Assembly (NCBI RefSeq): GCF_000828055.2
Contig: NZ_CP010523.2
Coordinates: 124,001-188,000 of the forward strand
Source: Klebsiella variicola
Lineage (GTDB): Bacteria > Pseudomonadota > Gammaproteobacteria > Enterobacterales > Enterobacteriaceae
Length of the DNA stretch: 64,000 nucleotides
Direction of reading: 5' to 3'
Part shown: positions 8,399 through 18,640 of the stretch, piece by piece
How the letters are laid out: each line of letters opens with the position of its first letter
Position numbering within the stretch: the stretch's first letter is position 1
Notes under the pieces: model-generated
Told to the model about the DNA's origin: nothing
Databases searched by the model: none
The model's input: only the letters and a program-made list of their open reading frames with translations
Program-made: the position numbers and the translations under genes

Positions 8399-9590
8399 AA
8401 CGGGTCACGATCTCGTCGAGTAATAATTGGCCCAGGAGTTCCTTGCGCTCAAGTGGTAAGCGCTTTTCCCCATCCTGCCAGAAAAGGTGTAATGCGTTGT
8501 TATCGCTATTAAAGCCCTGATCAGGCTGAGAAACATCGTTAGCGCAAATCAGGTCGAGGTTTTTGCGGGCACGTTTTTGCCGCGCATATTCTTCCACATT
8601 ATTCGTTTCGGCGGCAAACCCAACGACGTAAGGGCGATGGGCTTTTAGCGCCGCAACCCCGGCCACGATATCCGGGTTTTTAATCATTTTTATTGTTAAT
8701 TCATCACCTTGTTTTTTAATTTTATCTTCGGCGATGACGGCGGCGCGGTAATCCGCCACTGCGGCGCAGCCAATAAAAATATGCTGCTGCTGAGCGCCGG
8801 CCTGGACGGCGGCTTCCATTTCCAGTGCGGTAGTGACATCAATGCGCTGCACAAACGGCGGTGTCGGTAGTGATACCGGGCCGCTGACCAGGGTCACGTT
8901 CGCGCCCCGCTGCGCGGCGGCGGCGGCAATCGCGAAGCCCATTTTGCCTGAGCTGTGGTTGCTGATGTAACGCACCGGATCCAACGGCTCACGGGTCGGG
9001 CCCGCGGTAATCATGAGGTTGAGATGTTGCAAATCTTTGACAGGGGAGGCGAAATGCTGCGCGGCCATCTCCACGATGGTTAACGGATCGAGCATTCTCC
9101 CCGGGCCGACGTCGCCGCAGGCCTGGCTGCCGCTGTCCGGTCCCCACAGCAGCAGGCCGCGGGAAGCCAGCGTCCGCAGATTCTGCTGGGTGGCCTGCGC
9201 GCGATACATCTGCTGGTTCATGGCGGGCACCACGGCAACCGGGGAAGGGGTGGCAAGACAGATCGTCGACACCAGGTCGTTGGCCATGCCGGCCGCCACG
9301 CGGGCGATTAAATCAGCGGTTGCCGGGGCGAGGATCACCAGGTCGGCCCATTTCCCGAGCTCAATATGGCCCATAGCCGCTTCCGCCGCCGGATCGAGCA
9401 GGCTGTCGGAAACCGGATAGCCGGATACCGCCTGCAGGCTGAGTGGGGTGATGAACGCTTTTGCCGCCTCCGTCATCGCGACACGCACCTCCGCGCCGCG
9501 TTCGCGCAGTCGGCGCACCAGTTCCGGGGTTTTATACGCCGCGATACCGCCGCTGACGCCCAGGACGATTTTTTTACCCGCCAGAGTCAT
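8376..9590 (-). CDS. coaBC: Bifunctional phosphopantothenoylcysteine synthetase/decarboxylase
   Basis: Catalyses two consecutive steps of coenzyme A synthesis: CTP-dependent ligation of cysteine to 4'-phosphopantothenate (C-terminal CoaB) and FMN-dependent decarboxylation (N-terminal CoaC). The CoaC part shows [10 protein letters not shown], the active-site histidine in [19 protein letters not shown] and [10 protein letters not shown]. The CoaB part shows [20 protein letters not shown] and KNPDIVAG. An upstream in-frame ATG would add 28 residues; I chose 9590 (404 residues) because it gives the family N-terminus and has AGGAAG in front. The tandem ATG at 9593 is equally possible. Overlaps dut at the 3' end and is divergent from radC. 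Confidence 0.95.
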
Positions 9591-9762
9591 CATGATGTCT
9601 TCCTGTTGCCGTAGACCAGAATCCGCGCATCTTATCACAATCCTGTCGTCGTCGTGCCTCTGGTGGGCATTCACTTTGCGAGCGGCTACGCAGGGTGAAA
9701 AGCAGTGGGTCGGCAGCGCCGTCAGGCTGTGCCAGGATAGGCAAATTCACCCAGGAGGGCGC

Positions 9763-10428
9763 ATGGACGAAACGGAAAATCTGATGCCACGAGAAAAGAT
9801 GTTGCAGTACGGCATCGAAGCGCTAACGGATGTTGAGCTGCTGGCGCTGTTTCTGCGCGTCGGCACGCGTCGTCAGGATGTGCTCGGCTATGCGCAGGCG
9901 TTACTGCAGCGTTTTGGCTCGCTCTACGCTCTGCTTTCCGCGGATAAAGCGCAGCTGATTGCCGTGGATGGACTGGGGCTGGCGAAATATGCGCAACTGA
10001 AGGGTATTGCCGAGCTGGCGCGACGCTATTTTAGCTCACAGCTGGTCGAGGAGGCTGCGCTGGTCAGTCCCTCGACGACGCGGGAATTTTTACAAAGCCA
10101 GCTTACGGAAGAAGAGCGCGAGATCTTTATGGTGATCTTTTTAGATAATCAGAACCGGGTGTTGAAACATAGTCGCCTTTTTTCTGGTACTCTTAGCCAC
10201 GTTGAGGTGCATCCGCGAGAAATTGTACGCGAAGCCATCAAAGTGAACGCTGCCGCCGTGATCCTTGCGCATAATCATCCCTCCGGTAGTCCGGAGCCGA
10301 GCCAGGCAGACAGGCTGATTACCGAAAGGGTGGTAAAATGTTGTCGATTCATGGAGATACGCGTGCTTGACCATCTGGTTATCGGCCGCGGTGCGTATGT
10401 ATCTTTTGCCGAGCGTGGCTGGATTTAG
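9763..10428 (+). CDS. radC: RadC family JAB/MPN domain protein
   Basis: A 221-residue protein with an N-terminal helix-hairpin-helix-like region ([14 protein letters not shown]) and a C-terminal JAMM metalloprotease-like domain with [14 protein letters not shown] holding the zinc ligands. The biochemical role is not settled; older DNA-repair assignment in E. coli was withdrawn. ATG 9763 follows CCAGGAGGG and gives the usual family length, although the frame is open much further upstream antisense to coaBC. Divergent from coaBC and upstream of rpmBG. Confidence 0.92.
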
Positions 10429-10429
10429 C

Positions 10430-10468
10430 CCCGAACTGGCGATCCTTCGGGATCTTTGTCTGTTCGGG
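10430..10468 (+). terminator. Nested hairpin with UUCG tetraloop after radC
   Basis: Outer arms CCCGAAC (10430-10436) and GTTCGGG (10462-10468) enclose an inner hairpin GATCC-TTCG-GGATC (10441-10454). The inner loop is a stable UUCG tetraloop. There is no T-run, so termination is uncertain; it immediately precedes the rpmB promoter. Confidence 0.5.
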
Positions 10469-10470
10469 AC

Positions 10471-10499
10471 TTGAGCACATCGCCGAGTCAGCGTATACT
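10471..10499 (+). promoter_or_regulatory. Predicted sigma-70 promoter of rpmB-rpmG
   Basis: TTGAGC at 10471-10476 and TATACT at 10494-10499 are separated by 17 bp, a near-consensus promoter suited to strongly expressed ribosomal protein genes. Transcription would begin near 10506, leaving a leader of about 140 bases before rpmB. Confidence 0.8.
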
Positions 10500-10623
10500 A
10501 CGCCACCTTTGAGAATCTCGGGTTTGGCATTTGGGCCTGGCAGTCGAGAGTTCACATTGAACTGCGATGACCAGGCTGTAAAGCCTGACGAGGCGCCAAT
10601 ACCCCATACGAAGCTCGAGCTAA

Positions 10624-10881
<258 letters not shown>

Positions 10882-10898
10882 GTACTTAGAGGAAATAA

Positions 10899-11069
<171 letters not shown>

Positions 11070-11088
11070 TTTTCGCTTTCTTGTAATG

Positions 11089-11116
11089 AAAACCCCGCCC
11101 CGGCGGGGTTTTTTAT
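11089..11116 (+). terminator. Intrinsic terminator of rpmBG
   Basis: Stem AACCCCGCC / GGCGGGGTT with a two-base tip and TTTT tail, 20 bases after rpmG. This cleanly separates rpmG from the accessory block that follows. Confidence 0.92.
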
Positions 11117-11275
11117 TGCCATTATTCAGGCAAAACACCTTCAAAACTTATCATATATCCCTCTTTTAATTATTTACTACAAATCAATTAACATAATGAA
11201 TATAAAGGTTTTTCTTGTCTTGCTTGTATAGTCTGTCTATTCTTCCGGTACAGAAAACCAGCGACAGGGATTGTT

Positions 11276-11953
11276 ATGGCCTCTTTTATTCCAGATGTTT
11301 CATTTATCGATAACAGCGAACAGCGCACACCGTTAATTTTGGTCCTCGATTGCTCAGGCAGCATGCAGGGCCAGCCAATCGCCCAGCTGAATCAGGGATT
11401 AAAGCTGCTGGAAGAGGAACTTAAGCAGGATGTCATCGCCGCTAAGCGCGTTCGCCTGCTGGTGATCAAATACGGCGGCTATGATGAATGCGAGCTGTAT
11501 GGCGACTGGTGTGATGCGATGGACTTCATTGCCCCCGAGCTTGAGGCCAGTGGCCTGACGCCCACCGGGCAGGCCGTTAGCCTGGCGCTGGGCGAAATTG
11601 AAGCGGAAAAACAGCGCCTGAAAGCGGCTGGCGTCCCCTATACCCGGCCATGGCTGTTTTTAATGTCGGATGGCGAGCCCACCGACAACTGGCAGGCGGC
11701 AGCGCAGGCGTGCCGTGATGCGCAGGCGGCAAATAAAGTCGCTGTGTTTCCGATTAGCGTAGGACACGAAGCAACTGAGTCGATGGGGCAGTTCAGCCGT
11801 AGCGGCATTAACGGCGTGAAGCAGCTGAAGGGATTGCAGTTCCGCGAGCTATTCCTCTGGCTCAGCGCCAGTATGCAGGTGGTGTCGCAGTCGACACCGG
11901 GCGGTAAAGCACAGCTACCGCCGACGGATAGCTGGTCCGAAATTTCGGTCTGA
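11276..11953 (+). CDS. YegL-like von Willebrand factor A domain protein (TerY type)
   Basis: A 225-residue soluble protein made almost entirely of one vWA domain. The metal-ion-dependent adhesion site is complete: DCSGS (residues 25-29), Thr95/Thr97 in GLTPTGQA and Asp132 in MSDGEPTD. No signal peptide or membrane segment is seen, so it should be cytoplasmic. The C-terminal region (GLQFRELFLWLSASM, then QSTPG) closely resembles E. coli YegL. vWA proteins of this class occur with PP2C phosphatases and kinases, as in the TerY-P triad and E. coli yegL-yegK-yegI. Here it is first of four co-directional genes, with only 4 bp before the phosphatase. The preceding ~160 bp is AT-rich and is where a promoter must lie. 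Confidence 0.85.
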   Translation: MASFIPDVSFIDNSEQRTPLILVLDCSGSMQGQPIAQLNQGLKLLEEELKQDVIAAKRVRLLVIKYGGYDECELYGDWCDAMDFIAPELEASGLTPTGQAVSLALGEIEAEKQRLKAAGVPYTRPWLFLMSDGEPTDNWQAAAQACRDAQAANKVAVFPISVGHEATESMGQFSRSGINGVKQLKGLQFRELFLWLSASMQVVSQSTPGGKAQLPPTDSWSEISV

Positions 11954-11957
11954 CACC

Positions 11958-12683
11958 ATGAACTGGCGCGTATACGCAGCGTCGGTCATGGGTAGCAGCC
12001 ACCGACAAAATCAACTTCCCTGCCAGGATGCCTTTTGCTATCGCCATCTGGGCGATCGGCTTGTCGCCGTGGTATGCGATGGCGCAGGCTCTGCCGCGTA
12101 TAGCGAGCAGGGCGCAGCGTTGGTCGCGCATGCGCTGGCCGATCGCCTGGCGACATTCATCACGGCGCCGGATGAAAATCAGCTGGCGACGCTGCTCGGT
12201 AGTGTGCGCGAGACCGTGCTGCTACAGGCGCAGGAGCGGGAAATTTCCGCGGGCGATTTTGCCTGTACCGTTCTGGCTGCCTGGCTGGGAGAGACCGCCT
12301 CTGTGATAGTGCATATTGGCGATGGCGCTGCGGCGTTAAGCCTGGATGCCGAACAGCACTTCTCCCTGCCTGAAAACGGCGAATACGCTAACCAGACCTG
12401 GTTCCTGACCAGCGACGACTGGCGGGAGCATTTACATATCAGCCAGTTTTCTGGCAGAGCCACGAGACTGGTGATGATGACTGACGGCGTGCAGCCGTTC
12501 GCGCTCAATCGGCGTGGGGATGCGCTGTTCTCTCCGTTTATCGATCCGGTTTTGCGTTATGTGCAGCAGGTTTCAGAGGCTGAAGGAAGCGAAGCGCTGC
12601 GCGCCACGCTGGACGACCCGCGCACCTGGGCGATAACCGGTGATGACAAGACACTTCTGGTAGCCCTGCGTCATGAAGCATAA
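11958..12683 (+). CDS. PP2C family protein phosphatase (YegK-like)
   Basis: A 241-residue Mg/Mn-dependent Ser/Thr phosphatase. PP2C metal-binding and fold motifs can be traced: PCQDAF (Asp24), VVCDGAGS (Asp41), VHIGDGAA, MTDGV (Asp176) and GDDKT (Asp229-Asp230). It should therefore be active. It lacks membrane segments. The gene starts 4 bp after the vWA gene and overlaps the kinase gene by 11 bp, so the three are translationally coupled. The likely substrate is the neighbouring kinase or its targets, as in other kinase-phosphatase pairs; this is inference. Related to E. coli YegK. Confidence 0.85.
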   Translation: MNWRVYAASVMGSSHRQNQLPCQDAFCYRHLGDRLVAVVCDGAGSAAYSEQGAALVAHALADRLATFITAPDENQLATLLGSVRETVLLQAQEREISAGDFACTVLAAWLGETASVIVHIGDGAAALSLDAEQHFSLPENGEYANQTWFLTSDDWREHLHISQFSGRATRLVMMTDGVQPFALNRRGDALFSPFIDPVLRYVQQVSEAEGSEALRATLDDPRTWAITGDDKTLLVALRHEA

Positions 12684-14046
12684 AAAGCTGCCAGCCTGCT
12701 ATGACGGACAGCGCCGCACGGTACGTCTGGGGAAACTGATCAAGAGCGGCGGCGCGGGGAGTGTTTATTTCCTGGCGGATGACCCTTCCCGCGTTGCTAA
12801 ACTTTACCATCCGCAGACCGATACCGCTTACTACCAACGCAAGCTCAGCGCCATGCTGGCGCAGCGGCCTGAGATCCCCGCCCCCGCGGAAGGTGAGTCG
12901 ATTGTCCAGCTGGCATGGCCCGACTATTTGCTCTACGACGAGCGCAAGCGCGTAGTGGGCTTTGTCATGCCGGTTCTCGACACCCAGCGCACCATTGAGC
13001 TGGAGTATATTTTACAGGCGCGGCAGGCGAAGGCGCACCATCTGCCGGAAGGCATCGGTGCGAAAGTGAGCCTGGCTTGTAACCTTGCTACCCTGGTCTC
13101 TACGCTGCATGCGCGACAGCACCGGGTTATCGACATGAAGCCAGTCAACCTGCGGTTCTATCGCGACAGCCTTTATATCGCGCTGCTGGACTGCGATGGC
13201 TTTAGCATTCAGGGCGAGGGAGAGCGTTTCCCTGCAGGGCAGTTCACGCCGGATTATCTGGCGCCGGAGTTTCAGCGTATTGGGCAGGTGCCCGGTGAGC
13301 AGGAAGAAGCGCAGGATCGTTTCTCGCTGGCGGTGATCATTTTCCAACTGCTCAACCATGGTATTCATCCCTACAGCGGTCGCTCGCAAATGGCGAAGGT
13401 ACCGGATGATTTACCCGGCCGTATCGCCGCTGGCTGCTACGCCTACGGGATCAACGCAGCAACGACTATCTCACCGGTGCCGGCAAGTACCCACCATTTG
13501 CTGCCGGTTGAGCTGCGTAAGCTATTCGATCGCGCATTTAGCGATTCGCCCGCCCGACGACCTTCCGCCGATGAATGGGCGCAGGTGCTGCGTCCTTATG
13601 CGCTACGTAGCACGCAAAAAATTATTCTTTGTCATCAAAAACACCAGCATTTCGCCGGGATGCCATGCCTGGTCTGCGCGCGGAAAAAACAGGTTGTTGC
13701 GGGAATAAAGCAGGCAAAGCAGCGTAAGCAAGCGGAAACCGTGCGCCCGCGGGTCGCACCGGTAATGCAGAAGCCTCGCAGGGCGCCAGCCGCCGCCGTA
13801 CCTCGTCAACCTACCGGGCCGGGGCCGTTAACCCTGCTGTGGCGCAGTATTCGCAGCAACGTTCCTTCATTTGCCTGGCATGGCGCGCTGGCGCTGATGA
13901 GTACGCTGATTATTGGGGGGCTGGCGCGCAGTTTTGCCCGGCTCAACGGCTCTGGTCCAGCATGGTTCGATATTGCGGCGTTACTGATTATTTTTATCTG
14001 GGTGGCGGCGCTGATACTCCGGTCCATTATTCGGAGTCAGCCATAA
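12673..14046 (+). CDS. Membrane-anchored protein kinase with Cys/His knuckle (YegI-like)
   Basis: A 457-residue protein with a eukaryotic-like kinase domain over residues ~18-305. Seen are the glycine loop GGAGSVY (26-32), Lys43 in VAKLYH, the catalytic loop DMKPVN (Asp154, Lys156, Asn159) preceded by RV instead of HR, metal-binding DCDGF (173-177), APE (197-199) and Asp215. All key residues are present, so catalysis is plausible. After the kinase comes a CHQKH...CLVC cluster (Cys320, His324, Cys332, Cys335), a possible zinc knuckle, then a basic Pro/Arg linker and two membrane segments (~401-421 and ~432-450). It is shorter than E. coli YegI. It overlaps the phosphatase gene and abuts the next gene without a gap. 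Confidence 0.83.
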   Translation: MKHKKLPACYDGQRRTVRLGKLIKSGGAGSVYFLADDPSRVAKLYHPQTDTAYYQRKLSAMLAQRPEIPAPAEGESIVQLAWPDYLLYDERKRVVGFVMPVLDTQRTIELEYILQARQAKAHHLPEGIGAKVSLACNLATLVSTLHARQHRVIDMKPVNLRFYRDSLYIALLDCDGFSIQGEGERFPAGQFTPDYLAPEFQRIGQVPGEQEEAQDRFSLAVIIFQLLNHGIHPYSGRSQMAKVPDDLPGRIAAGCYAYGINAATTISPVPASTHHLLPVELRKLFDRAFSDSPARRPSADEWAQVLRPYALRSTQKIILCHQKHQHFAGMPCLVCARKKQVVAGIKQAKQRKQAETVRPRVAPVMQKPRRAPAAAVPRQPTGPGPLTLLWRSIRSNVPSFAWHGALALMSTLIIGGLARSFARLNGSGPAWFDIAALLIIFIWVAALILRSIIRSQP

Positions 14047-16380
14047 ATGACGCTGAAATTAAGATATCTCATTCTCTTTTTCGCGTTGTTGATGGCTTTT
14101 GTGGCGCCGGATTTAGTCTCCTTGCTGTGGTCCGCACCGTTCCGCTTAATGGATACACTGCCGCTGTTACCTGCCGCGCTCAATGATCCCCAGCGTTTAT
14201 ATCTCTATGGCCTGTGGCTGGGGGGAACGATCTATTTTTCCGCTCTGATGTGGGTGGCGGTTACCCGACACAATAAAGGCTATCTGATTGTTGCTGTGGC
14301 GCAGATTGTTTTTGTCATCGGCATTACCTTATGCAAGGTGCCTTTTGGCGAACAAAACCAGCGGCGCTGGCAGAGTATGAATCAGCTGGAAACACCCGCC
14401 TGGAGCGATTTTCTCTATGACCGCCATGCTCGTTTTATTCAGATAGCGCTGCGTGGGGGGCCGTTGAATCAGCACAACATCACCGAGCAATTTCTCGCGC
14501 AGAAAAAACCGCTGGCGGCGCTGCCGCTTGGCTGGAATGAAGAAGATGCCGCCGCCGCGGATGCGCTCTGGCAGCAGGCGCTGGGCTATCGTGAACGGGA
14601 AGCGAAAGCATTACCTAAAATGATGGAGTATCTGGCCTGGATGCCGGACCGGGGCGATCTGACGCTGGCCACGGCCATCCTGACGCTGACGAGCGAGGCG
14701 GATAAAGCGCAGGCGGAAACGGCGTTTCGCCGGGCCATCGCCATTGCGCCGGAAAACCCGGATGCCTGGCTGGGCTGGGCAGTCGCGCTGATCCAGGCCC
14801 GCGATGATGAGCGGGTGCGAAAATCGCAGTTTCAGCCGTTCACAAAGAGCATTACGACCGGATTGTTAATGGCGGAGGGTCTGAAGGAGAGCCCGCGGCA
14901 GCCTGCGCTACAGCAGCGGCTGGCAGCATACATCGCGCAAATGCCGGTGGAAGATCGGCAAATCCTGCTCATTTTGCAGGCGCGGATGCAGACGCGCTCC
15001 TGCGACTTGCCGTTGGATAAGTATGCAACAGAACAGGGTGAAGCGAGCAAGGTGCTGCCTTTGGCAAAATCAATCGTGTTTAAAACTGCCCCCGTGCGTA
15101 GCGTCAGCCCGATTAACGAACGCTTTCCTGGCCATGTCAGCATTGATACGGAGCGCTATGGCATCAGGAAAGAGAGTTTGCAGGCGATGCTGTATCCGGC
15201 GATACATAAATATATCAAGTCAGCGACGACCATACTCTCGCTGGATACCGACGCCAGCGGCGAGCTGTTAAACGTGGTCGTTGAATGCAGCAGTGGCGTT
15301 CCCGAGTTCGACCAGGCGGCGCTGCACTATGCACAGGAGTGGCGTTTTGGTTCTCACCGGCAGGGAAAACGCGTGTTGATGCCAGTGAGCTTTATCAGCG
15401 ATCGCGTACCGCCGGAAGAATACTATGGGGAGATGGAGGCGCGGGCGATGCGCATTTCCCGGCTGGCCGCTCGCCATAATAAAACGGGGATGGAAAGCGC
15501 CTCGAAGGAAATGGTTGCGCGATTTACGCGAATGAAAGCGCTGTTTCCGCAACAGAGACTGAGCGCGGAAGAGGCGCATCAGTTACAGCTTATCTACCTA
15601 AAAAAACGCGATAAAACGCCCAAAGGCAGAATGGAAAGCTTTACTGAAATGACGGAGGCGATGGAAGCCCTGGTGGAGACGCACCCGTACTACGCGCCGC
15701 TACTCAAAGATCTGGCGTTCAGAAAAAGTTACGCTTCCTTTGAGGAGAAGCGGGCAGCATGGTCGCAGCTGCTGGCGCTGGCGCCAGAGGATCCGCAGGT
15801 GTGGATGGCCTGGGGGAGCGTGTGGGCCGAGCGCGATCCTGAGCTGTATATGGGCGCGATGATCGCTTCCATGCTGCTACAGCCGCTTACCGAGGATACC
15901 GAGCAGAAAATAGCGAATATCAAAACGAAGCTACTGATGCGGGTTGGCATGGGGCCACGTAAGGCGATTCTTTCGGCAAAGGTCTACGCCGACTATGGCG
16001 ATATCCTTGGGGAAAGAGCGAAAGGGGAAGATACGGCGAAGGCCGCGGCGATCTTACCTGCCAGTAAAAAACTGGATCGTCAGGAAACCATCACTCCCCT
16101 GGATCCAGCGCCGCGCATGACGGTTGATATCGATCGGGATGAGGTGTTGAACGCCGCTCTCTTCAACGTGGAGTGGAAGGCGCCGCAGAGGCCGGACGAA
16201 CGGCGGGCGGAACTGACCGTTGATATCGATGATACTGGCATGCCGACGCTGGTTCTCATCAGCAAAAGCAGCGAAGTGGAACAGTATGATGCGCAGGCGG
16301 TCAATATGCTGTGGCGCTGGAACTTTAAACCGCAGCCTGATGGCAGGCGGATGACCGTTGGCGTGAATTTTCTCCACTAA
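14047..16380 (+). CDS. Large membrane protein with TPR-like helices and two TonB-C-like domains
   Basis: A 777-residue protein. Three membrane segments stand at the N-terminus (~5-27, ~51-72, ~79-96). TPR-like helical repeats follow (~205-255, with FRRAIAIAPENPDAWLGWA). A first TonB-C-like domain covers ~380-450 (YPAIHKYI, then DASGELLNVVVECSSG and FDQAALHYAQEWRF). A second helical part lies around 560-605, and a second TonB-C-like domain at ~715-777 (DDTGMPTLVLISKSS, WRWNFKP). It starts immediately after the kinase stop codon and ends the block. No ExbB/ExbD genes or TonB-type proline spacer are nearby, so a classical energy-transducer role is doubtful. A role as partner or substrate of the kinase is inference. 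Confidence 0.7.
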   Translation: MTLKLRYLILFFALLMAFVAPDLVSLLWSAPFRLMDTLPLLPAALNDPQRLYLYGLWLGGTIYFSALMWVAVTRHNKGYLIVAVAQIVFVIGITLCKVPFGEQNQRRWQSMNQLETPAWSDFLYDRHARFIQIALRGGPLNQHNITEQFLAQKKPLAALPLGWNEEDAAAADALWQQALGYREREAKALPKMMEYLAWMPDRGDLTLATAILTLTSEADKAQAETAFRRAIAIAPENPDAWLGWAVALIQARDDERVRKSQFQPFTKSITTGLLMAEGLKESPRQPALQQRLAAYIAQMPVEDRQILLILQARMQTRSCDLPLDKYATEQGEASKVLPLAKSIVFKTAPVRSVSPINERFPGHVSIDTERYGIRKESLQAMLYPAIHKYIKSATTILSLDTDASGELLNVVVECSSGVPEFDQAALHYAQEWRFGSHRQGKRVLMPVSFISDRVPPEEYYGEMEARAMRISRLAARHNKTGMESASKEMVARFTRMKALFPQQRLSAEEAHQLQLIYLKKRDKTPKGRMESFTEMTEAMEALVETHPYYAPLLKDLAFRKSYASFEEKRAAWSQLLALAPEDPQVWMAWGSVWAERDPELYMGAMIASMLLQPLTEDTEQKIANIKTKLLMRVGMGPRKAILSAKVYADYGDILGERAKGEDTAKAAAILPASKKLDRQETITPLDPAPRMTVDIDRDEVLNAALFNVEWKAPQRPDERRAELTVDIDDTGMPTLVLISKSSEVEQYDAQAVNMLWRWNFKPQPDGRRMTVGVNFLH

Positions 16381-16443
16381 TCGCGTCGTTGCCTCCTGAA
16401 CGAGGTAAAATAGTGACGCCTGCCTATGTAGATGAGGAAAATC

Positions 16444-17253
16444 ATGCCTGAATTACCAGAGGTTGAAACCAGCCGCCGCGGCATCGAGCCGCACCTGGTT
16501 GGCGCAACCATTCTGCACGCCGTCGTGCGCAACGGACGGCTGCGCTGGCCGGTTTCCGAAGAGATTTATCGCCTGAGCGACGTTCCGGTGCTCAGCGTGC
16601 GGCGTCGTGCCAAATACCTGCTTCTGGAACTGCCGGACGGCTGGATCATCGTCCATCTCGGGATGTCTGGAAGCCTGCGTATCCTGAGCGAAGAGCTACC
16701 GGCCGAAAAACACGATCACGTTGACCTGGTCATGAGTAATGGCAAGGTGCTGCGCTATACCGATCCGCGCCGCTTTGGCGCCTGGCTGTGGACCAAAACG
16801 CTGGAAGACCATCCGGTACTGGCCCACCTTGGCCCGGAGCCGCTCAGCGATGAATTTAACGCCGACTATCTTCAGCAGAAATGCGCGAAGAAAAAAACTG
16901 CGATCAAACCCTGGCTGATGGATAACAAGCTGGTGGTAGGGGTCGGCAATATCTACGCCAGCGAGTCGCTGTTCTCGGCCGGGATCCATCCCGACAGGTT
17001 GGCTTCTTCACTGTCGCGGGAAGAGTGTGAGCAGCTGGTGAAAGTGATTAAGCTGGTCCTGCTGCGTTCGATAGAGCAGGGCGGCACCACGCTGAAGGAT
17101 TTCCTGCAAAGCGATGGCAAGCCGGGCTATTTTGCCCAGGAGCTGCAGGTCTATGGCCGCAAGGGCGAACCGTGCCGGATCTGCGGCACGCCGGTTGTCG
17201 GGACCAAACATGCCCAGCGGGCGACCTTTTATTGCCGTCAGTGCCAGAAGTAG
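16444..17253 (+). CDS. mutM: Formamidopyrimidine-DNA glycosylase
   Basis: Base-excision repair enzyme that removes 8-oxoguanine and formamidopyrimidines and cuts the abasic site. The 269-residue product begins [10 protein letters not shown]; Pro2 is the catalytic nucleophile and Glu3 also acts in catalysis, so ATG 16444 must be the start rather than an upstream in-frame codon. The C-terminal zinc finger is CRICGT...YCRQCQ. The gene lies 63 bp after the accessory block and is convergent with coaD. Confidence 0.97.
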
Positions 17254-17273
17254 TTCTCAGGAACAGGAACGTT

Positions 17274-17304
17274 TGTAGGCCAGGTCAGCGTAGCGCCACC
17301 TGGC
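17274..17304. repeat. REP-like palindrome between mutM and coaD
   Basis: GCCAGGT (17279-17285) and ACCTGGC (17298-17304) flank CAGCGTAGCGCC, the layout of enterobacterial REP units (GTAGGCC..., GC-rich arms). It sits between convergent genes in a 135 bp gap. Confidence 0.6.
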
Positions 17305-17388
17305 ACAAAGACCGGGACAGAGCCGGTGTGGATGGGCGGCGCAGTGCAGCGCCAGCCTGCGTGGCTCATGCCCCAGCAGATAGATGCG

Positions 17389-18640
<1,252 letters not shown>

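Follow-up and report, generated by a model that had tools for sequence, protein, structure and literature searches.

A conserved block of vWA, PP2C, kinase and TonB_C-type membrane protein genes between rpmG and mutM of Klebsiella variicola

Four adjacent genes between rpmG and mutM

We analysed a stretch of 64,000 nucleotides from the genome of Klebsiella variicola (a single contig of 5.52 Mb, NZ_CP010523.2, positions 124,001 to 188,000), which is called the window in the following. Between two genes that we take to be rpmG and mutM the window harbours a block of four intact open reading frames at 11276-16380, encoding a von Willebrand factor A (vWA) protein, a PP2C-type phosphatase, a protein kinase and a membrane protein of 777 residues. 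Window coordinates are counted from its first nucleotide, and all window features described here lie on the forward strand. The genes are tightly packed with intergenic gaps of +4, -11 and 0 bp in 5' to 3' order, exactly as an earlier interpretation made from the letters alone (the sequence-only reading) had listed them. It had bounded the block by the rpmG terminator and mutM, which agrees with a terminator-like stem at 11097-11109 and a mutM start at 16447 or 16432. Its statement that the block is absent from this place in E. coli was also borne out, as a megablast search of 5,426 E. coli genomes (20,395 records) gave no match to the block.

The vWA protein (225 residues, 11276-11953) matched the Pfam model VWA with 4.7e-8. 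Residues resembling a metal ion-dependent adhesion site, D25-x-S-G-S, T95 and S131-D132-G, were kept in all 15 orthologues, which share 125 invariant positions. The C-terminal tail QVVSQSxPGGxAQLPxTDxW was likewise kept in 15 of 15 and is looser in relatives elsewhere. A second match to this protein was not found in the genome of the window at 0.001. The PP2C-type Ser/Thr phosphatase (241 residues, 11958-12683) matched PP2C_2 of Pfam with 6.3e-46. Its residues Q23-D24, D41-G42, G121-D122-G123, D176-G177 and D229-D230-K231 were kept in 15 of 15 orthologues, and the motifs QD, CDGAGS, GDG, DG and DDKTL surrounding them were invariant. Sequence searches of the PDB with both proteins returned nothing at 0.01.

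The kinase (457 residues, 12673-14046) is composed of a catalytic part, a zinc-ribbon motif and two membrane segments. None of the Pfam kinase models matched at E 1, the sole match being DUF6312 (0.24); the protein matched the kinase part of the NCBIfam model LanL (2.5e-8) and PDB chains of phosphorylase kinase (2.4e-4). The Gly-rich loop, K43, D154-M-K156-P-V-N159, D173-C-D175-G, E199, an APE motif and D215 were invariant among eight aligned orthologues. An alignment of 29 kinases showed the catalytic residues in all of its 12 rows from blocks of this kind, each with the catalytic loop D-(M/L)-KP-x-N. The earlier claim that the residues needed for kinase and phosphatase activity are present is consistent with this conservation of the key residues of the vWA protein, the phosphatase and the kinase.

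In a tree of the 29 kinases the 12 block rows formed one clade (100/99), nested in a group of 18 rows that was split from the E. coli kinase YegI at 100/100; owing to long branches the deeper joins are unsure. By this sequence comparison the kinase falls outside the YegI clade and possesses a canonical DxKPxN loop. The loop, together with D-x-DG(F/Y), is common to the block kinases, two triads of vWA, PP2C and kinase genes from Azospirillum, a triad on a human-gut contig and the kinases of loci L091 and L113. The group of 18 also includes the kinase of locus L093 with the loop DLTPEH. Behind the kinase part, at 13630-13677, the motif C320-x3-H324-Q-H326-x5-C332-xx-C335 forms a putative metal site. 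It was invariant in the eight orthologues and occurs also in YegI and other triads; among the 29 rows only the far TerY-P-like L047 and L111 do not show it, the latter being cut at residue 350.

Hydropathy analysis predicted a C-terminal membrane hairpin in the kinase (13870-14028), consisting of a weak segment at about residues 400-418, a loop of 15 residues and a second segment at 434-452. With a stricter cut-off the second segment alone was called in the window kinase. At the lenient cut-off 11 of 11 orthologues ended in the same way: a proline-rich stretch, then a pair of membrane segments joined by a loop of 9-33 residues, and finally a short tail. The kinase itself therefore appears to lack an outer domain.

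The fourth gene (14047-16380) encodes the 777-residue membrane protein, a proposed sensor with two units that each combine a helical stretch resembling tetratricopeptide repeats (TPR) with a TonB_C domain. Pfam detected TonB_C in two stretches (4.8e-12), residues 392-443 (15220-15375) and 709-775 (16171-16371), and TPR models stayed below their cut-offs. The two halves are duplicated, as indicated by a BLAST comparison of half against half (E 6.6e-9) and by profile comparison with hhalign (99.8%, E 8e-29). An AlphaFold2 model of 15412-16377 gave the last 92 residues block values of the predicted local distance difference test (pLDDT) of 63-80, and this modelled domain resembled TonB C-terminal domains at the top of the PDB matches and TolA C-terminal domains as well. 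The PDB search with the sequence returned one match at E 1.

The membrane part (14047-14346) was delimited from the hydropathy of 14 sequences together with the charge of their loops. About three segments are predicted in the first 100 residues, and four in L037a, L037b and L111. All 14 sequences have a loop of net positive charge ahead of the last segment and a long C-terminal part behind it, so the positive-inside rule predicts that the other 680 residues of the window protein are periplasmic. The large membrane protein of the sequence-only reading thus stood as far as its membrane part is concerned and was refined to a duplicated helical and TonB_C protein that is predicted to be periplasmic. 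In the energy-coupling layout of TonB a single N-terminal membrane anchor is followed by a proline-rich linker. That the fourth gene simply encodes a TonB was considered and rejected on layout, given the approximately three membrane segments and, ahead of the first TonB_C domain, a largely helical stretch.

Conservation and distribution of the block

The four genes are one conserved unit. In a sample of 20 genomes of the genus a close kinase was found in seven and the fourth protein in the same seven; each of these has all four genes between rpmG and mutM, and the other 13 have an empty site with only 100-222 bases from the rpmG stop to mutM. In a family sample of 198 genomes a close kinase (E < 1e-100) occurred in four genomes, and a full-length fourth protein (E < 1e-280) in exactly those four; weaker kinase matches (E above 1e-22) were detected in nine other genomes. 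Six other genomes of the family matched the profile of the fourth gene through the TonB_C end alone (model positions 671-776) and were not counted as homologues. The co-occurrence has a Fisher p of 1.6e-8 in the 198 genomes and of 1.3e-5 in the other set, with shared ancestry ignored. The identities of kinase and fourth protein covary, with a Spearman coefficient of 0.89 over 45 pairs drawn from 10 sequences.

A family sample of 392 genomes, used for the kinase search only, contained the kinase at 1e-40 in 10 genomes, and all 10 loci were read for all four genes. A search for the gene order in 394 genomes, which scored at most two candidates per genome, yielded two matches, both of them carriers. 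Taken over all samples, the order vWA, PP2C, kinase and fourth gene was present in 15 of 15 distinct carrier genomes from six genera of the family, the fourth gene of carrier G1059 (73% complete) being truncated by a contig end. The sequence-only reading had suggested a co-occurrence search and had regarded homologues of the fourth gene without the other three as evidence against a system. The four genes kept their order in every carrier, the genomes with a close kinase were also those with the fourth protein, and no full-length fourth protein without the triad was found in the sets of 20, 198 and 394 genomes to which its profile was applied.

The site of the block varies by genus. Outside the genus of the window it occupies different chromosomal places (G002, G070, G078, G1080), and in three genomes of genus g82 it lies beside a CstA gene (Pfam assignment for L110), the other neighbour presumably being recR. 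Identities to the window proteins in genera g2, g70, g78 and g82 were 71-76% for vWA, 46-52% for PP2C, 47-56% for the kinase and 22-27% for the fourth protein; the corresponding values for G1059 (genus g17) were 89, 76, 73 and 54%. Substitution patterns indicate that the block genes are under constraint. For three Klebsiella pairs the ratio of nonsynonymous to synonymous substitution rates was about 0.05 (vWA), 0.13-0.18 (PP2C), 0.06-0.14 (kinase) and 0.18-0.24 (fourth gene), compared with 0.02-0.06 in mutM and coaD. That the fourth protein changes fast would fit a part facing a variable environment; looser constraint explains it equally well.

Beyond the family, the kinase search was positive in 11 of 369 genomes of the class at 1e-20 and in two of 383 genomes of the phylum at 1e-30. 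Among 24 more distant kinase loci, 18 have vWA and PP2C genes beside the kinase gene (in L092 the kinase is on the other strand), and six contain the kinase alone (L091, L093, L094, L095, L096 and L099). A match to the fourth protein was absent at 1e-3 from all 24. Because the triad is present in 18 and the fourth gene in none of these loci, the comparison indicates that the triad is ancient and widespread, the fourth gene being an addition seen in the window's family only.

Some carriers deviate in detail. G002 has the fourth gene as two tandem, diverged copies (L037:7794-12888), and three members of the genus (G200, G212 and G213) possess, besides the block, a second, YegI-like kinase.

Relation to known triads and a proposed signalling role

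The block is a variant of known vWA-PP2C-kinase triads. The likeness to YegL-YegK-YegI and to TerY-P noticed in the sequence-only reading lies in the shared gene order and the zinc-ribbon motif. YegL-PphC(YegK)-YegI of E. coli has the same order, the motif after the kinase part and membrane segments in the kinase. YegI is reported to autophosphorylate and to be dephosphorylated by PphC (PMC13232886). With YegI as query the block kinase was the only match in the window's genome at 0.001 (31%), and over the kinase part the two share about 29% identity. They differ in the catalytic loop, GDVNQNS in YegI and DxKPxN in the block kinase. Beyond its membrane segments YegI has a long part with a weak helix-hairpin-helix match (2.9e-4, below the cut-off), whereas the block kinase ends in the hairpin. 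The gene of YegI is followed by yegD instead of a fourth gene of the block kind.

TerY-P, as described, comprises a TerY-like vWA protein, a PP2C-like phosphatase and a Ser/Thr kinase with a C-terminal zinc ribbon (PMC11090510). The block shares the adjacent vWA, PP2C and kinase genes and the motif on the kinase; unlike TerY-P as described there, it adds the membrane hairpin and a periplasmic-type fourth protein. The triads from Azospirillum and the gut contig (L033, L115 and L034) show 35-38% identity over the kinase part, with the same DxKPxN and DCDGF motifs, but are devoid of a fourth gene of the block kind. After the ribbon the Azospirillum kinases continue into a C-terminal part of their own that looks SH3-like by eye; in A. 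oryzae it extends for some 200 residues beyond the membrane segment and matched no Pfam model. The gut-contig kinase, by comparison, shows nothing but membrane segments there. A search of the open-access literature, which leaves out most subscription papers, brought up no four-gene form with a duplicated TonB_C protein.

Some related kinases carry outer domains and the block kinase has the hairpin alone, so by analogy the outer sensor is most likely provided in trans by the fourth gene. The kinase of L091 (4225-6273) is fused to an FGE-sulfatase domain (6e-45; no vWA or PP2C gene in the 9.6-kb contig), that of L093 carries Ig-like/FG-GAP outer domains, and an SH3_3 protein (3.4e-11) is encoded directly after the triad of S. 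meliloti. A comparable arrangement has been proposed for PknG of Actinobacteria, in which a periplasmic signal would be transmitted by the separate, co-conserved proteins GlnX (membrane) and GlnH (outer), as far as the abstract tells (PMC6069109). There, too, separate membrane and outer proteins serve a Ser/Thr kinase; those sensor proteins differ from that of the block, and the abstract mentions no vWA or PP2C protein.

We therefore put forward, tentatively and at a little less than an even chance, that the products of the four genes work together at the inner membrane as a Ser/Thr phospho-signalling unit, in which the fourth protein is a sensor in trans. The fourth protein would read a periplasmic signal through its two helical and TonB_C units and relay it via its own membrane helices to the kinase hairpin, which it may contact. 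The kinase would phosphorylate itself and a target, the vWA protein may serve as a metal-dependent scaffold or first substrate, and the PP2C protein would strip the phosphates. From the sequence-only reading, which ran from a membrane sensor through a kinase/phosphatase switch to a vWA adaptor, the conserved unit and the key residues stood; the sensor and adaptor roles stay proposals. Since this triad has a separate envelope protein dedicated to it, the block offers a handle on the stimuli and outputs of vWA-PP2C-kinase triads. It also suggests that one kinase core is combined with outer parts that vary from bacterium to bacterium.

TonB C-terminal domains grip outer-membrane receptors, and a more specific version of the sensor role is envelope surveillance, in which the fourth protein would use the duplicated domain to probe receptors of the outer membrane, lipoproteins or peptidoglycan and inform the kinase; we regard this version as rather improbable. 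A TonB C-terminal domain as sensor of a Ser/Thr kinase was not met in the open-access literature searched.

Several observations weigh against the proposed sensor unit. The full-length model of the fourth protein has a mean pLDDT of 35, and its TPR matches are weak. The topology of the kinase and the fourth protein is predicted from hydropathy and charge, and four segments instead of about three are predicted for the fourth protein in L037a, L037b and L111. The stretches read around L091 and L093 contain no vWA or PP2C gene, and L093 lacks the canonical catalytic loop. In the gut-contig and Granulicella triads, which have several membrane segments, an outer domain was not seen, a misfit to a strict rule. 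Finally, the fourth protein could be a target rather than the sensor.

This last point leads to outward signalling, in which the kinase, phosphatase and vWA protein would switch a TonB-like envelope machine by phosphorylating the cytoplasmic parts of the fourth protein. Through their C-terminal domains TonB and TolA engage partners in the outer membrane or the periplasm, as also reflected in the titles of PDB entries, and the resemblance of the last modelled domain to both speaks for this alternative, as do the position of the fourth gene at the end of the block and its tandem copies in G002. Against it, the cytoplasmic parts predicted for the window protein are tiny (an N-terminus of seven residues and a loop of six), and the protein does not have the single-anchor layout of TonB; we judge it unlikely.

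Equally doubtful is a TerY-P-like anti-phage or stress defence, in which infection or envelope damage would activate the kinase and halt growth. TerY-P is reported to work against T7-like phages (PMC7699616), and the triad order and zinc ribbon are as in the account of TerY-P cited above (PMC11090510). The presence is patchy (seven of the 20 genus genomes), and there were matches to candidate-defence models, for PP2C to PDC-M21C (5.9e-5, over general phosphatase parts) and for the kinase to PD-T4-6 (7.7e-8) and MAD6 (1.3e-4), both over general kinase parts. However, none of the four proteins matched the PADLOC models TerY and STK_OB at E 1, a weak point given that E. coli YegL itself reaches TerY at 0.0097. 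By eye, no restriction or ter genes were seen among the neighbouring open reading frames of the window and the carrier loci, and the fourth protein faces the envelope.

A chance neighbourhood of the triad and an unrelated membrane gene is very improbable: it could appeal to the 18 distant triads without the fourth gene but to nothing among the carriers, and it is contradicted by the order conserved across six genera at different chromosomal sites, by the co-occurrence and by the covarying identities in the genomes searched.

Upstream region, surroundings and origin

From their translations we take the genes flanking the block to be radC, rpmB, rpmG, mutM, coaD and waaE. The rpmG terminator-like stem was found in alignments of the seven Klebsiella carriers and the 13 empty sites. 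The stretch of 15 bases GGTTTTTCTTGTCTT at 11208-11222 is identical upstream of the block in the seven carriers and is a possible control element; it has no match to the sigma-70 consensus. In the alignment of these carriers the leader of the first gene with its ribosome-binding region (11243-11275) is conserved as well. A sigma-70 scan of 10900-16700 yielded no promoter (0 found; 3.1 expected from shuffles). At gathering score no Rfam model matched in 9000-18000, and tRNA genes were absent from the window. The G+C content is 0.56-0.60 in the block genes compared with 0.57 in the whole window, and 0.32 in the 160 bases upstream.

A mobile or viral origin of the block was unsupported by searches of IMG/VR, plasmid and phage collections. 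In IMG/VR no relative was confirmed among 49 pattern matches of the kinase and 29 of the fourth protein. None of 72,556 plasmid records matched the fourth protein at 1e-5, and kinase matches were located on 56 plasmids, none reaching 80% coverage. In the phage collection one record, MT836238, an unverified human-gut contig filed as phage, carries a related triad; it is the gut triad mentioned above (L034:5389-8292), with several membrane segments in its kinase.

In three carriers the genes that follow the block are notable, which could be chance: directly after it in G078 a LuxR-type autoinducer-binding regulator (L036:9739-10476), in G1080 a shorter open frame that by eye resembles this regulator (L108:10368-10757), and in G070 LuxI and LuxR genes (L038:10390-11787). 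In G078, in addition, an RHS-repeat gene (L036:3-1910) ends about 2.4 kb upstream of the block. Near vWA-PP2C-kinase triads on two rhizobial plasmids we observed His-Xaa-Ser genes, namely hxsA, hxsB and hxsC (L118:404-3503) on one and hxsA and hxsC (L119:10217-11014) on the other.

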